Source: Candidatus Gastranaerophilales bacterium (lineage in GTDB: Bacteria > Cyanobacteriota > Vampirovibrionia > Gastranaerophilales > Gastranaerophilaceae). Taken from it: a DNA stretch of 44,077 nt. The position numbers were made by a program, and so were the translations under genes. The stretch's first letter is position 1. The number at the start of each line of letters is the position of its first letter. The notes beneath the pieces are model-generated. The model was not told the DNA's origin. It did no database searches and saw only the letters and a list, made by a program, of their open reading frames with translations. The stretch covers positions 1-44,077 of the forward strand of contig CALUTF010000013.1 in assembly GCA_944323595.1 (NCBI GenBank), in the 5' to 3' direction. Positions 17,031-24,009 of this stretch are shown one piece after another.

Positions 17031-17059
17031 TTGCAGATAAAGTTTTTTTCAAATATAAT
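17031..17059 (+). promoter_or_regulatory. lepA promoter, leaderless
   Basis: -35 TTGCAG (17031-17036), a 17-nt spacer and perfect -10 TATAAT (17054-17059). The lepA ATG starts at 17067, only 7 nt after the -10, which is where transcription should begin. No ribosome site is present. Confidence 0.75.
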
Positions 17060-17066
17060 AATAATT

Positions 17067-18869
17067 ATGAAATACAAAGAAAACGTAAGAAATTTTTGCA
17101 TAATTGCCCACATAGACCATGGAAAATCAACACTTGCCGACAGATTGCTGGAATTCACAGGAACTGTAGCACAGCGTGATATGCAGGATCAAATCCTTGA
17201 TTCCATGGACATTGAACGCGAACGCGGAATTACTATTAAACTCAATGCGGCAAGAATGAATTATAAAGCAAAAAACGGCAAAAATTATATTCTTAACCTC
17301 ATTGATACTCCGGGGCACGTTGATTTTTCTTACGAAGTTTCACGTTCACTTGCTGCCTGCGAGGGTGCACTCCTGATTGTGGACGCCACACAGGGGGTAG
17401 AGGCGCAAACTCTTGCCAACGTTTATATGGCAATTGAACAAAACCTTGAAATTATACCTGTTATCAACAAAATAGATTTACCGTCTGCGGATGTAGAAAG
17501 GGTTAAGCAGGAAATTGAAGAAATTCTGGGAATAGATGCCTCAATGGCAATCCCCGTCAGTGCCAAAGCTGGTATCGGGATAGAAGATGTTCTTGAAGCT
17601 GTTGTTGATTTCATTCCGCCTCCGGCAGATACAACCGATAAACCTCTCAGGGCTCTTGTTTTTGACAGTGCTTACGACCAATACCTAGGGACTTTATGCT
17701 TTTTCAAAATAATTGACGGTAAAATGAAACTCGGTGAAAAAGTTAAATTTATGGCGTCTGGCAAAGAGTACGAAATTGTTGAACTGGGATATCTTACACC
17801 TACAAGAGTACAGGTAGAAGAACTTGTCTGCGGAGATGTAGGTTATTTTGCCGGTTCTATAAAAGAATTAACGAGGTTTGTAGGTGATACGATAACAGAT
17901 GTTGAATTTCCGGCGGCAGAACCTCTGCCGGGATATAAAGAAGCTCTGCCTATGGTGTTTTCCGGAATGTATCCTGTTGATAATGATGATTACCATAACC
18001 TTAAAGAAGCTCTGGAAAAGCTTAAACTCAACGACAGCAGTATTACTTTTGAACCGGAAACATCAAGCGCATTAGGTTTTGGTTTCCGCTGCGGCTTTCT
18101 AGGAATGCTTCACATGGAAATCGCACAGGAAAGACTTGAGCGGGAATACAATCTTGCACTTGTTACAACCGCGCCATCAGTTGTCTATAAAGTGCACAAA
18201 ACTAACGGCGAAGTTGTTGAAATTGATAACCCTGCAAATCTGCCGCCGGCTCAGGTAAGAGATTTTATTGAAGAACCTTATGTAAGAGTACAAATAATTA
18301 CACCGAATGATTATGTCGGAACTCTAATGGATTTATGCCAGACCAAACGCGGAATTTTTCACAATATGACTTACCTTGATAAAGTCCGTGCCAGCCTTGA
18401 TTACGAAATACCTTTGAGTGAAGTTATCACTGACTTTTATGACCAGCTTAAATCACGTTCCAAAGGTTATGCAAGTCTTGATTATGAATTCAGCGATTAT
18501 AAACGCTCCAAACTTGTTAAGCTTGATATTATGCTGGCAGGAGAAGTCGTAGATGCCCTTTCAGTTATCTGTCACGAAGACAGCGCTTACTATATCGGAC
18601 AAAAATTAACAAACAAACTTAAAGAAATAATCCCGCGGCAATTGTTTGAAGTTCCTATTCAGGCAGCCATCGGCGGACGTGTAATTGCACGTACTAATAT
18701 TAAAGCAATGCGCAAAAACGTTCTTGATAAATGCTATGGCGGCGATATCACACGTAAACGCAAACTCCTTGAAAAACAAAAGAAAGGTAAAAAACGGATG
18801 AAATCCGTCGGACGTGTTGAAGTTCCGCAAGAAGCCTTTATGGCTGTATTAAGCCTGGATGATGATTAA
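17067..18869 (+). CDS. lepA: Elongation factor 4 (LepA)
   Basis: LepA is a ribosomal GTPase thought to aid initiation or back-translocation under stress. Starting at ATG 17067 gives 600 residues, against 599 in E. coli. The frame is open 12 codons further up, but those codons overlap the promoter and do not match the family. Near the N-terminus are the P-loop AHIDHGKST, the switch [10 protein letters not shown] and NKIDLP. The protein then shows EF-G-like domains and the LepA-specific C-terminus ending [17 protein letters not shown]. It is transcribed alone, divergent from the NTF2-like gene. Confidence 0.97.
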
Positions 18870-20021: not shown

Positions 20022-20038
20022 ATTTGCCCGAAAAGTAT

Positions 20039-20044
20039 TATAAT
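20039..20044 (+). promoter_or_regulatory. -10 box of xerD, leaderless position
   Basis: Perfect TATAAT ends 6 nt before the ATG at 20051. There is no ribosome site. The -35 region falls in the T run of the preceding terminator and is not consensus-like. Confidence 0.55.
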
Positions 20045-20050
20045 AAGTTC

Positions 20051-20911
20051 ATGAATGTTCAGGTTTTATCGGAATATCTGGAATATTTAGAGATTGAAAA
20101 GGGTCTCAGTGAAAACACTATAGAGGCATACAGGCGGGATTTGTCTGATTTTTTGGATTTTTGTGATATGGACGTCACAGAAGTTCAGAGAAACAATCTT
20201 AATTCCTACATAAGAAATTTGAGGGAAAAAGAATACTCCGCCACAAGCGTAATGCGGAAAATAGCATCCTTAAGGGGATTTTTCAAATGGCTTTGCGCGT
20301 CTGAGATTTGCAAAACAAATCCTACGTTGACACTTGAACAGCCCAAAGTTCCCAAAAGACTGCCAAAAGTTATGACAGTACAGGAGATTGAAACCATTCT
20401 GAACGAAAACCTGAACAAGCGAGAACGAGTTATTGTAGAACTTTTGTACGGATGCGGACTCAGAGTTTCAGAACTTGTAAACCTTAAAGTAAATGACTTT
20501 GACATTAAAGCAAAGTATCTTCAAACAACAGGAAAAGGCTCTAAAGACAGGATAGTCCCGCTCGGGTCAAAGGCAATTAGTGCGATAAAAGATTACATGC
20601 AGGAGCGTGATTTTACACTGAAAAAATTCCGCATAGACACAAAAAATCTGCTTGTTAACGAACACGGCAGAAACTTGTCTCGTCAGGATGTTTATAATTT
20701 TATAAAAGAACAGGGTAAAAAAATTCACAAACACATTTCTCCACATACATTAAGGCACAGTTTTGCGACGCATCTTTTGGAAAATGGGGCTGATTTAAGA
20801 ATAGTACAGGAACTTCTCGGGCACAGCGATGTTGCAACAACACAGCTTTACACTCATATAAGCAAAAAGCGGCTTAAAGAAGTTTATTTTGCAATCAATA
20901 ATGAGTCATGA
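20051..20911 (+). CDS. xerD: Tyrosine recombinase XerC/XerD
   Basis: Xer recombinases resolve chromosome dimers at dif during division. From ATG 20051 the protein has 286 residues. It has an N-terminal SAM-like domain (LSENTIEAYRRDLSDFLDF, closer to XerD than XerC) and a catalytic domain with R138 (YGCGLRVSE), K162 (GKGSKDR), H232 and R235 (HTLRHSFATH), H258 (LGHSD) and nucleophile Y267. An upstream TTG frame extension would run over the -10 box and lacks homology. No second Xer gene is seen here. It may be the only Xer of the organism, in which case the C/D label is arbitrary. bioD follows after 12 bp. Confidence 0.94.
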   Translation: MNVQVLSEYLEYLEIEKGLSENTIEAYRRDLSDFLDFCDMDVTEVQRNNLNSYIRNLREKEYSATSVMRKIASLRGFFKWLCASEICKTNPTLTLEQPKVPKRLPKVMTVQEIETILNENLNKRERVIVELLYGCGLRVSELVNLKVNDFDIKAKYLQTTGKGSKDRIVPLGSKAISAIKDYMQERDFTLKKFRIDTKNLLVNEHGRNLSRQDVYNFIKEQGKKIHKHISPHTLRHSFATHLLENGADLRIVQELLGHSDVATTQLYTHISKKRLKEVYFAINNES

Positions 20912-20923: not shown

Positions 20924-21643
20924 ATGTTAGAGTTATACGTTAGCGGAACAGAACAGAATTCGGGAAAAACGTTTATCACTGCCGGTCTTGCTGCAACTAT
21001 GCAGTGTTTAGGGTATTCCACCAGCGTATACAAGCCTGTTCAGACAAATGCAATAGAAAAAAACGGATTTATACAGGCGCCTGATTTAGCTTACGTAAAA
21101 TTCATAGACCCGTATATCAAAACCTATTTCAGCTATCTTTTTACGCAGGATGCAGCACCGGTGCTTGCGGCAGGAACCTCCGGAACAGAAATTAAGCGCG
21201 ACAAAATCGTTCAGGATTACGAACAAATTTTCCACGAAAGTGAATGTATTATAACCGACGGTTGTCAAGGATTAGGGGCACCATTGACAGCGGATTTGCT
21301 CGAAGCCGATATTATAAAATCACTAGGATTGCCTGTATTGCTTGTAGTTTCGCCGGAAAAAACCACCATTAACAATATCATAATGACTTTAAACTTTGCT
21401 AAAACACGTGATATACCTGTAAGAGGAGTAATCCTCAATGAATACCCTGATGATACAGTCGATTTAAACATAAAAAATCTTCCGCGGTTAGTTGAAGAAT
21501 ACACAGACGCAAAGGTACTGGGAATTCTACAGCATATTGAAAACCTGAAAAACATAAGACCGGACGATTTGATAACAAACATTTTATACGGAATAGATGT
21601 TGAGAGCGTATTCAACATCAAGATTGCCAAGTTGAGTATGTAA
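20924..21643 (+). CDS. bioD: Dethiobiotin synthetase
   Basis: BioD makes the ureido ring of dethiobiotin from DAPA, CO2 and ATP, just before BioB. The 239-residue protein has the P-loop variant GTEQNSGKTF (8-17), the substrate-binding SVYKPVQT around residue 37, the EC-IITDGCQGLGAP stretch equivalent to the EGAGG loop, and the adenine-binding GVILNEYP. The fold is the standard BioD/MinD type. It starts 12 bp after xerD. No bioA, bioF or bioH is visible. Downstream is an 825-bp gene-free region with repeats and the oriC-like sequence. Confidence 0.92.
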   Translation: MLELYVSGTEQNSGKTFITAGLAATMQCLGYSTSVYKPVQTNAIEKNGFIQAPDLAYVKFIDPYIKTYFSYLFTQDAAPVLAAGTSGTEIKRDKIVQDYEQIFHESECIITDGCQGLGAPLTADLLEADIIKSLGLPVLLVVSPEKTTINNIIMTLNFAKTRDIPVRGVILNEYPDDTVDLNIKNLPRLVEEYTDAKVLGILQHIENLKNIRPDDLITNILYGIDVESVFNIKIAKLSM

Positions 21644-21708
21644 ATAATTAGTACACCTATCCCCGCACTGCTATATAAACATAATGATTAGCAAACGTAA
21701 CGTTTGGC

Positions 21709-21845
21709 AAACATGATGTTTGCATCAACACGACTCTTCAACATTGGAATTAGCGCCTGTATTATAGGTGTTCAAAAAATTTTCAACATCTTTTAACAGG
21801 CGGCTTTTGTAGAAAATTGTGTTTCCCTCCCCCTCGAGGGGAGGG
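21709..21845 (+). repeat. Composite intergenic repeat, module R copy 2
   Basis: It begins catgatgtttgcatcaacac, keeps cgcctgtattataggtgttc and ggcggcttttgt, and ends in a CCCTCCCC/GGGGAGGG hairpin around TCGA (21825-21845). It contains one TGTAGAAAA (21808-21816), which is the reverse of the 9-mer clustered at 22118-22361. Confidence 0.8.
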
Positions 21846-21860
21846 AGTAAGGGAGGGGCA

Positions 21861-21996
21861 AACATGATGTTTGCATCAATATGACTATTCAACTTTTAAA
21901 AAAGCCGCCTTTCGAAGATATTCAAGAAGTTTTTAATATCTTTGTTGTAGCGGCTTTTGTTGAAACCGTTGTTCCCTCTCCTTTACAAGGAGAGGG
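21861..21996 (+). repeat. Composite intergenic repeat, module R copy 3
   Basis: A direct copy next to copy 2, with the same tgatgtttgcatcaa start and the hairpin CCCTCTCCTT/AAGGAGAGGG at 21974-21996. Its middle differs from copies 1 and 2: AAAAGCCGC and GCGGCTTTT flank a nested AAGATATT/AATATCTT, so the centre can fold as a long cruciform. Confidence 0.8.
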
Positions 21997-22117: not shown

Positions 22118-22361
22118 TGTAGAAAACTCTGTAGAATACTGTAGAAAAATTTATTGTTTTCTACAAGAAAGTATTGGTTTATATATTTTTCTTTTTTTCT
22201 ACAGAAAAACATCAAAGTTTTCTACAAAATTTTCTACGATGAAAACTATTGTCCTGCAAAACTTTCCTGTGTTTTTCTACAAATAATTGGAGCTTATTAT
22301 TACTATTAAATATTTATATTATTTATTATTAATAAATTAATAAGAAAAAATAAGTAGAAAA
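22118..22361. other. Candidate chromosomal replication origin (oriC)
   Basis: Nine 9-mers equal or close to TTTTCTACA lie in 244 bp just upstream of dnaN. Exact copies on plus are at 22157, 22195, 22218 and 22273; exact copies on minus are at 22118 and 22140. One-mismatch copies are at 22130 (minus), 22230 (plus) and 22353 (minus). Next to them, 22294-22353 is A or T at 58 of 60 positions, fitting a DNA unwinding element. The motif differs by one base from the cyanobacterial-type DnaA box TTTTCCACA. dnaA is not in the window. Gene direction favours minus on the left and plus on the right, but not strictly. Confidence 0.75.
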
Positions 22362-22468: not shown

Positions 22469-23590
22469 ATGAAATTTGTTGTAAAAAAAGAGGATTTATA
22501 TAACGGGATTAAAATAGTAGAACGTGCTACAAGCATGAAAGCTCTGCAGCCGGTTTTGTTGAATATTTATATTGAAACTATTGATACATCTGCGATTAAA
22601 CTTATTGCAACAGATTTGGATTTTACAGTGACAGCTGTTGTTGATGCTCAAATAGAAGAAGCGGGAAAAATTACTCTTCCGTCTAAAACTTTGAATGAAA
22701 TTGTTTCCAAAACAGGTAATGAATTAATTACATTCTCAATGTTGGAAAGTGAAACTATTGTTAATATTAAAGCCCAAAATTCATCTTTTGATATTATCGG
22801 TATTGCAGCATCAGAATTTCCTCCGGAAATTGCAAATGTTGAACTTCATGAAGAAAACAGTTTTGAAATTGCAGTGAAACCTTTGACAAAAGCTGTTAAA
22901 CAGGCAGGTTTTGCAGCAGCGGGATACGAAACCAGTAATCTGCTTTCCGGTATTGTCTGCGATATCCGCGATGATATTCTGGAAATTGCATCAACCGATG
23001 GTAACAGACTTGCAAGAGTCAGAGAAAAAATAGTTAACAAAGACGGTTGTGCTCACCAGTTGATTATCCCGTCTAAAACTCTTAACGAATTTATTAAAAT
23101 GGCAGCTTTCATTGAAGATGAATCTGTTAGAATTTATATAGAAAAATCTAAAATTATTTTCAAAACAGAAAAAACAACAACAATTTCAAGACTTCTGGAG
23201 GGGCAATTCCCTAAATATAACCAGTTAATTCCTAACGAAAGCCCGAAAGAAGCTCTTGTTAACGTTTCTAAATTTATCTCTGCTCTTGAAAGAGTTGCCA
23301 TTATGGTTAACGAAAAAACAAATATTGTAAAATTTGATTTTGCCGATAATGTACTGACTCTGGCTGCAGATACTCCTGATGCAGGTAAATCAGAAGAACA
23401 TATTGATATAGATTATACTTCTGAACCAATTACTATTGCTTTTAATTACAAGTTTATTCTTGATGCTTTGAAAAATATTGAAAGCGACGAGGTTAAAATT
23501 GGCTTAAATTCAAGCTTATCTGCAACTGTTTTGAAACCAAACAGTGAAGATGACTTTGTTTGCCTGATTATGCCTGTTCAAATCAGATAG
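22469..23590 (+). CDS. dnaN: DNA polymerase III beta subunit (sliding clamp)
   Basis: DnaN forms the ring-shaped dimeric clamp that tethers DNA polymerase III. The 373-residue length is standard and the three repeated clamp domains can be followed: MKFVVKKEDLYNGIKIVERATS at the start, TLPSKTLNEIVSKTG in domain 1, GYETSNLLSGIVCDIRDDILEIASTDGNRLA in domain 2 and the C-terminal VCLIMPVQIR end. It is preceded by the oriC-like region and heads a tight plus-strand cluster: the next gene starts 14 bp after its stop. dnaN next to the origin without dnaA recalls Synechococcus elongatus. Confidence 0.97.
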   Translation: MKFVVKKEDLYNGIKIVERATSMKALQPVLLNIYIETIDTSAIKLIATDLDFTVTAVVDAQIEEAGKITLPSKTLNEIVSKTGNELITFSMLESETIVNIKAQNSSFDIIGIAASEFPPEIANVELHEENSFEIAVKPLTKAVKQAGFAAAGYETSNLLSGIVCDIRDDILEIASTDGNRLARVREKIVNKDGCAHQLIIPSKTLNEFIKMAAFIEDESVRIYIEKSKIIFKTEKTTTISRLLEGQFPKYNQLIPNESPKEALVNVSKFISALERVAIMVNEKTNIVKFDFADNVLTLAADTPDAGKSEEHIDIDYTSEPITIAFNYKFILDALKNIESDEVKIGLNSSLSATVLKPNSEDDFVCLIMPVQIR

Positions 23591-23604: not shown

Positions 23605-24009
23605 ATGTCATCTTTAAAAGATAAAGCAATAGACTATTTTATGAATGGTTATTCCTGTTCAGAAAGTATAGTTCAGGCTGCAATAGATGACGGACTCTGT
23701 GATGAGTCGCTTTTGCCTGTTGCTACATCTTTTTCCGGAGGAATGTCTTCAGGTTGTGTCTGTGGAGCTTTAGCGGCAGCACAAATCATATCCGGATATA
23801 ATTTCGGGCGTAATAATTCAAAGAATAATCCTGTTCAGGCAAGAGAAAATGCAAAAGCTCTTGTTGAAAGTTTTAAAGAACGTAACAAAGCTACCTGCTG
23901 CAAAATTCTTTCAGGCGGTCGTCAGGGAATGGAGAGAAAAATTCATTGTCAGAAAATGGTTGGCGATGCTTGCGAACTTGTAGAAAACATGTTTAAGGCG
24001 GTTGTTTAA
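23605..24009 (+). CDS. C_GCAxxG_C_C family redox-type protein
   Basis: A 134-residue member of the C_GCAxxG_C_C family, small cytoplasmic proteins proposed to be redox active or metal binding. Conserved elements are NGYSCSESIVQAA, the core SGCVCGALAAAQIISG, KATCCKIL and HCQKMVGDACELVE. The start at ATG 23605 is chosen because GGAGG ends 10 nt upstream; the frame is open further into dnaN. The gene overlaps neither neighbour, and crcB begins on the base after its stop. The reason for its place between dnaN and crcB is not clear. Confidence 0.88.
   Translation: MSSLKDKAIDYFMNGYSCSESIVQAAIDDGLCDESLLPVATSFSGGMSSGCVCGALAAAQIISGYNFGRNNSKNNPVQARENAKALVESFKERNKATCCKILSGGRQGMERKIHCQKMVGDACELVENMFKAVV

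Follow-up and report, generated by a model that had tools for sequence, protein, structure and literature searches.

The region 22118-22361 of the 44,077-nucleotide stretch of Candidatus Gastranaerophilales bacterium DNA analysed here (the window) is, judging by its sequence, very probably an origin of replication (oriC) with a lineage-specific DnaA box. This predicted oriC appears to belong to the cyanobacterial dnaN-linked type, with a derived, order-wide box and a matching change in DnaA. What is new is that most of the order has Lys, and rarely Arg, in DnaA at the position of E. coli D433, together with the change in the box. We directly observed the box cluster, its uniqueness in the genome, its anatomy and conservation, the residue change, and two concordant changes on the tree, and an oriC that combines a box array, trio-based opening, and a derived box accompanied by a change at residue 433 is very likely the best explanation of these observations as a whole.

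A genome-unique cluster of variant DnaA boxes upstream of dnaN

Six exact copies of TTTTCTACA lie within 164 bp upstream of dnaN. On the minus strand, they occupy 22118-22126, at the distal end, where minus boxes are also kept in relatives, and 22140-22148; on the plus strand, they occupy 22157-22165, 22195-22203, 22218-22226, and 22273-22281, after which a trio tract follows. Three weaker boxes, each with one mismatch, were found at 22130-22138 (TATTCTACA, minus strand), at 22230-22238 (TTTTCTACG, plus strand), in tandem with the box at 22218-22226, and at 22353-22361 (TTTTCTACT, minus strand), on the far side of an AT-rich stretch, where the sister species G001 and G002 have an exact minus box. 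The initial annotation had reported six exact and three one-mismatch copies in both orientations within 244 bp, and all were re-found at its coordinates. It had also described the sixth base as altered in every copy, and position 6 is indeed T in all nine, the one-mismatch copies departing from TTTTCTACA at position 9 in two cases and at position 2 in one. No copy therefore has the C at position 6 of the canonical box, TTWTNCACA.

Windows simulated with a first-order Markov model (100 runs) contained a mean of 0.95 copies of TTTTCTACA, in keeping with the earlier estimate of about one chance copy per window, and a maximum of 2 per 250 bp. For six copies falling within 164 bp at any place in the genome, the Poisson bound is 3e-10. 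Genome-wide, TTTTCTACA occurs 87 times versus 91 times for a reversed-pattern control, and no second cluster of at least three was found in the 2.05-Mb draft; the genome-wide count that had been suggested as a check thus revealed clustering at no other locus. Elsewhere in the window, TTTTCTACA is present at 52-60 and 21808-21816, both correctly listed before, and additionally at 23979. The copy at 21808-21816 (minus strand) sits in a direct repeat and is probably not an origin box. Two diverged direct repeats of 49 and 61 nt, spaced by about 150 and with a palindromic GCAAACATGATGTTTGC core, are located at 21706-21976, just upstream of the predicted origin, and it is the 61-nt repeat that contains this copy.

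The gene downstream of the array, dnaN (22469-23590, plus strand), encodes the 373-aa sliding clamp of DNA polymerase III (TIGR00663, E 4e-80; Pfam), and the nearest matches to DnaN in named genomes are from Candidatus Gastranaerophilales or Melainabacteria MAGs, at 95-97% identity. Between the array and the dnaN start the distance is 108-351 bp, and the array is itself preceded by lepA (17031-18869), a xerD-like gene (20024-20911), and a bioD-like gene (20924-21643). In the 77-contig draft, dnaA is single copy and located on a different contig from dnaN, so that the region combines the dnaN adjacency and unlinked dnaA that define a cyanobacterial dnaN-linked oriC. A conventional origin at dnaA, the possibility that the initial annotation had raised against itself, was ruled out, as no box cluster was found around dnaA and the 67 occurrences of TTWTCCACA in the genome include no cluster of three or more. 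The 205-aa ORF adjoining dnaA is one that we take to be ruvA-like. The cyanobacterial box TTTTCCACA is absent within 1 kb upstream of dnaN. With regard to gene order and copy number in relatives, G096 (locus L189, genus g15) departs from the other members of the order in that its dnaA precedes dnaN by approximately 1.3 kb, with the box array and a response-regulator-like ORF between the two genes, and a second, divergent dnaN-like gene scores above the family cut-off in G028, G050, G055, G083, and G085.

The array adjoins a DnaA-trio tract and an AT-rich stretch

The last plus-strand box is followed by a 12-bp spacer (AATAATTGGAGC, 22282-22293) and, on the minus strand, by a DnaA-trio tract of five trios at 22294-22308 (5'-TAATAGTAATAATAA-3'), such that the tract previously suspected near 22294-22309 proved to be real. 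It reads TTA-TTA-TTA-CTA-TTA on the plus strand and 3'-AAT-AAT-AAT-GAT-AAT-5' on the minus strand. Box array, spacer, trio tract, and AT-rich stretch follow one another as published for a basal unwinding system (BUS; PMC8287927), whose spacers peak at 10-13 bp, with at most 16 bp. A BUS is defined by three or more 3'-NAN-5' trios no further than 16 bp from a box, and the five trios here lie 12 bp away. The tract forms one end of a candidate unwinding element at 22294-22353, in which 58 of 60 positions are A/T; this stretch was noted earlier for the same composition, and no other 60 bp in the window has a higher A/T content. A genome-unique box cluster and an adjoining AT-rich element are both features of a DnaA-dependent oriC.

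From established DnaA biology we infer that ATP-DnaA would bind the TTTTCTACA array through domain IV, and that a DnaA filament extending from the last plus box at 22273-22281 would run onto the trio tract 12 bp away, melting the AT-rich stretch, where the helicase would be loaded and replication initiated. The sequence features that support these steps are the array, the spacer, the trio tract, the AT-rich stretch, and the matched change in the recognition helix of DnaA.

The predicted origin is conserved across the order

Of the 73 named relatives in Gastranaerophilales whose dnaN locus is preceded by 600 bp or more of sequence, 68 have at least three copies of TTTTCTACA within 1.5 kb upstream of dnaN, versus none of 258 background tiles of equal size. 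Relatives share a common plan consisting of two to three minus boxes, three to four plus boxes, a last plus box, a spacer, a tract, AT-rich DNA, and dnaN; the window has, in order, minus-strand boxes, plus-strand boxes ending in one that a 12-bp spacer separates from the trio tract, AT-rich DNA, and dnaN. The tract in relatives is of the type CTTATTATTACTATTA on the plus strand, giving trios with a middle A on the minus strand. A box followed by trios was found in 38 rows from the order, in 29 of which the distance from box to tract is 11-14 bp, versus 1 of 27 control background sites containing TTTTCTACA. This comparison of dnaN upstream regions, which had been proposed earlier, revealed that the box is lineage-wide. 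The suggestion of a lineage-specific box thus held with respect to a derived box, whose lineage is the order Gastranaerophilales and not one species, but a sub-clade with Asn at residue 433 of DnaA has C at position 6 again. In genera g13 and f3g32, the arrays upstream of dnaN contain TTTTGAACA mixed with TTTTCTACA, so that the letters at box positions 5 and 6 seem to be exchanged as a pair, CT or GA. No clear cluster near dnaN was seen in g14, g19, G105, or the sister order f8.

The change in the box is accompanied by a change at DnaA residue 433

Base-contacting residues of E. coli DnaA are 399, 423, 432-435, and 438-439 (PMC5043019), of which D433 is reported to be strongly conserved whatever the class (PMC8235120). 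Domain IV of DnaA from the window's genome was aligned with that of E. coli (1J1V) and anchored on H434-T435-T436, the alignment at this motif being free of gaps in families f2-f4. This revealed that R399, H434, T435, and L438 are retained, while the canonical Asp433 is replaced by Lys and P423 by Glu. The initial annotation had proposed looking for a change in domain IV, and one is present at the position corresponding to D433 of E. coli. Lys is found at this position in nearly all genera of families f1-f7 and Arg in a few; genera g17, g18, and g22 have Asn, with one Thr (G089), and the sister order f8 has Thr. The window's own class has K, R, N, or T here, while Asp is present in 40 of 40 DnaAs from Cyanobacteria and further classes within the phylum, as it is in E. 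coli.

We counted the variable letters 5 and 6 of TTTTNNACA within 700 bp upstream of dnaN. At the 267 sites from K433 genomes, the commonest pairs are CT (141), GA (44), AT (36), and AA (13), with T or A at position 6 in 260 and C in 4, whereas the 23 sites from N433 genomes include GC (10), AC (5), and CC (2), with C at position 6 in 17. In the D433 outgroup genomes, 80 of 97 sites have CC, and in a genomic control the letters are spread over all 16 pairs (TT 115, CA 92, TA 71, CT 65, GA 64, and the remainder dispersed). On a tree that excluded domain IV and was built from DnaA domain III and DnaN, the N433 clade is nested within the K433 order (SH-aLRT 100), and the fewest changes required are two in residue class and two in the box, both independent pairs being concordant. 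Statistical significance is out of reach with only two independent changes, for which the sign test gives p = 0.5. The sister order f8 was sought as a third independent change by virtue of its T433, and was left out of the count because no repeated box was identified there. In two f8 genomes, a trio-proximal TTTCTTACA precedes the tract by 11-14 bp, and most loci of this sister order (L355-L363) have a clear trio tract upstream of dnaN.

Residue 433 is not the sole candidate for reading the altered base, because other contact positions of domain IV also vary within the order, namely T435 to Pro and P423 to Glu; in G001 and G002, from the window's own genus, which have the former, the box is unchanged. 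Families f2-f4, however, have K433 together with P423 and an unchanged GGR loop and already use TTTTCTACA, making 433 the best candidate among the contact positions that differ from Cyanobacteria. The most serious alternative accepts the origin and attributes the change from C6 to T6 to AT mutation pressure or to other changes in DnaA, with residue 433 as a bystander. The small number of independent changes (just two), the variation at 423 and other contact positions inside the order, and a report that places the D433 contact at box position 7 and not 6 (PMC8235120) all lend it some weight, but drift would yield mixtures, whereas C6 is found at 4 of 267 sites with K433 and at 17 of 23 in the nested N433 clade, where the upstream DNA is similarly AT-rich, and the retention of P423 in f2-f4 alongside K433 and T6 indicates that a change at 423 is not needed. 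We regard the bystander explanation as rather unlikely.

Co-adaptation of residue 433 and the box is thus well supported but not proven, and residue 433 is probably the specificity switch; as there are only two changes, we do not rate this causal role any higher. We hypothesize that the box was derived from the cyanobacterial TTTTCCACA by a change of C6 to T, or in some lineages to G5A6, which would have accompanied the change of D433 to Lys at the base of the lineage or close to it, and that a sub-clade arising later exchanged Lys433 for Asn and regained C6. On chemical grounds, the amino group of cytosine could donate a hydrogen bond to Asp or Asn, and Lys could donate one to O4 of thymine on either strand, such that A6 would also be allowed. 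A one-residue switch thrown twice in this way, from D to K with C6 to T or A and from K to N with C6 back in one clade, would mean that initiator and origin throughout the order use a code poorly legible to canonical DnaA, a reading that we favour slightly less firmly. Few protein-DNA pairs in bacteria are as strongly conserved as the DnaA box with the residues that recognize it. An order-wide replacement that comes with a matching box change and is reversed in a nested clade constitutes a natural experiment in the joint evolution of an essential initiator and the site that it binds in multiple copies.

Displaced arrays and GC skew

In genus g5, the region upstream of dnaN is without boxes, and a complete array is found 5.2, 6.3, and 9.4 kb away in three genomes, with a trio tract readable beside it, as in the TTTTCTACA-AACAATGCATG-CTTATGATGAATGATTATT of G057. 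The displaced array occurs in either orientation relative to dnaN in these genomes (G030, G104, and G057; loci L179, L145, and L180). An array 5-9 kb from dnaN is not merely a dnaN promoter, and although a position 108-351 bp upstream of the dnaN start would suit a DnaA-regulated promoter array, the displaced g5 clusters led us to reject this as the function of the region in place of an origin, and the preservation of the trio tract and AT-rich stretch at fixed spacing, together with a skew switch at dnaN in the relative G016, leaves it highly improbable. Even less probable is a datA- or DARS-like site for DnaA titration or reactivation, since, while such sites are likewise clusters of DnaA boxes, the array is the sole box cluster of the genome and has a trio tract, an AT-rich stretch, and dnaN beside it.

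For the predicted oriC, the GC-skew check proposed by the initial annotation was borne out in one relative and gave a mixed picture in another. On contig G016:C1 (852 kb, family f7), skew is -0.13 to -0.17 in four 20-kb samples to the left of dnaN, near zero in the sample across dnaN, and positive in the seven samples to its right (+0.08 to +0.16); the array at dnaN in this genome is weaker, with six copies of TTTTNNACA, two being CT or GA. Contig G034:C1 (740 kb) has a cumulative minimum near 317 kb, with the array at 313.8-314.0 kb, but also a deeper second minimum near 491 kb, at the end of a region of about 419-491 kb, where no TTTTCTACA cluster was seen and which is perhaps due to an inversion. 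Within the window, which spans only 44 kb, the cumulative minimum falls at about 17-19 kb, which places it within several kb of the array.

Comparison with known origins

The box TTTTCCACA and the dnaN-linked location of the origin are documented for cyanobacteria (PMC4674748, PMC7198777), and we compared these origins alongside. The oriC regions of Synechococcus elongatus, Anabaena 7120, and Cyanothece 51142 follow the same plan, lying upstream of dnaN with dnaA unlinked and consisting of a box array, a trio tract, and AT-rich DNA (PMC4674748, PMC7198777), but they pair TTTTCCACA with D433, whereas the window's genome pairs TTTTCTACA with K433. The region also resembles the BUS of Bacillus subtilis and others in having a DnaA box, a spacer within the 10-13 bp range, and trios with a middle adenine on the appropriate strand (PMC8287927, PMC6669920), but its box falls outside the TTWTNCACA consensus. 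We found no literature on Melainabacteria origins, and among the ten best-ranked of 160 papers containing the string there was no report of TTTTCTACA as a DnaA box. Origin finders that rely on TTATCCACA are likely to overlook this origin. Its predicted location in a large uncultured gut order of non-photosynthetic cyanobacterial relatives should aid growth-rate estimates from read depth, genome closing, and plasmid design.

Deviant boxes are also known elsewhere. In Thermotoga maritima, DnaA likewise lacks D433 (FNRSHPVVV, with S433 and P435) and the oriC has the deviant box ACCTACCAC (PMC10316083), but as the residue at 433 is a different one and the register of the box relative to the 9-mer is ambiguous, we regard this case as a lead and not as a test. 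Epsilonproteobacteria have a lineage-specific box, TCATTCACA, which has been tied to changes in the recognition helix; they differ in keeping D433 and C6, and the authors point to residues 435, 438, and 439 (PMC5043019). At the first of these positions, the replacement of T435 by Pro in the HPT motif was also observed in the DnaAs of genera g5, g15, g16, and g21, and Thermotoga maritima likewise has Pro.
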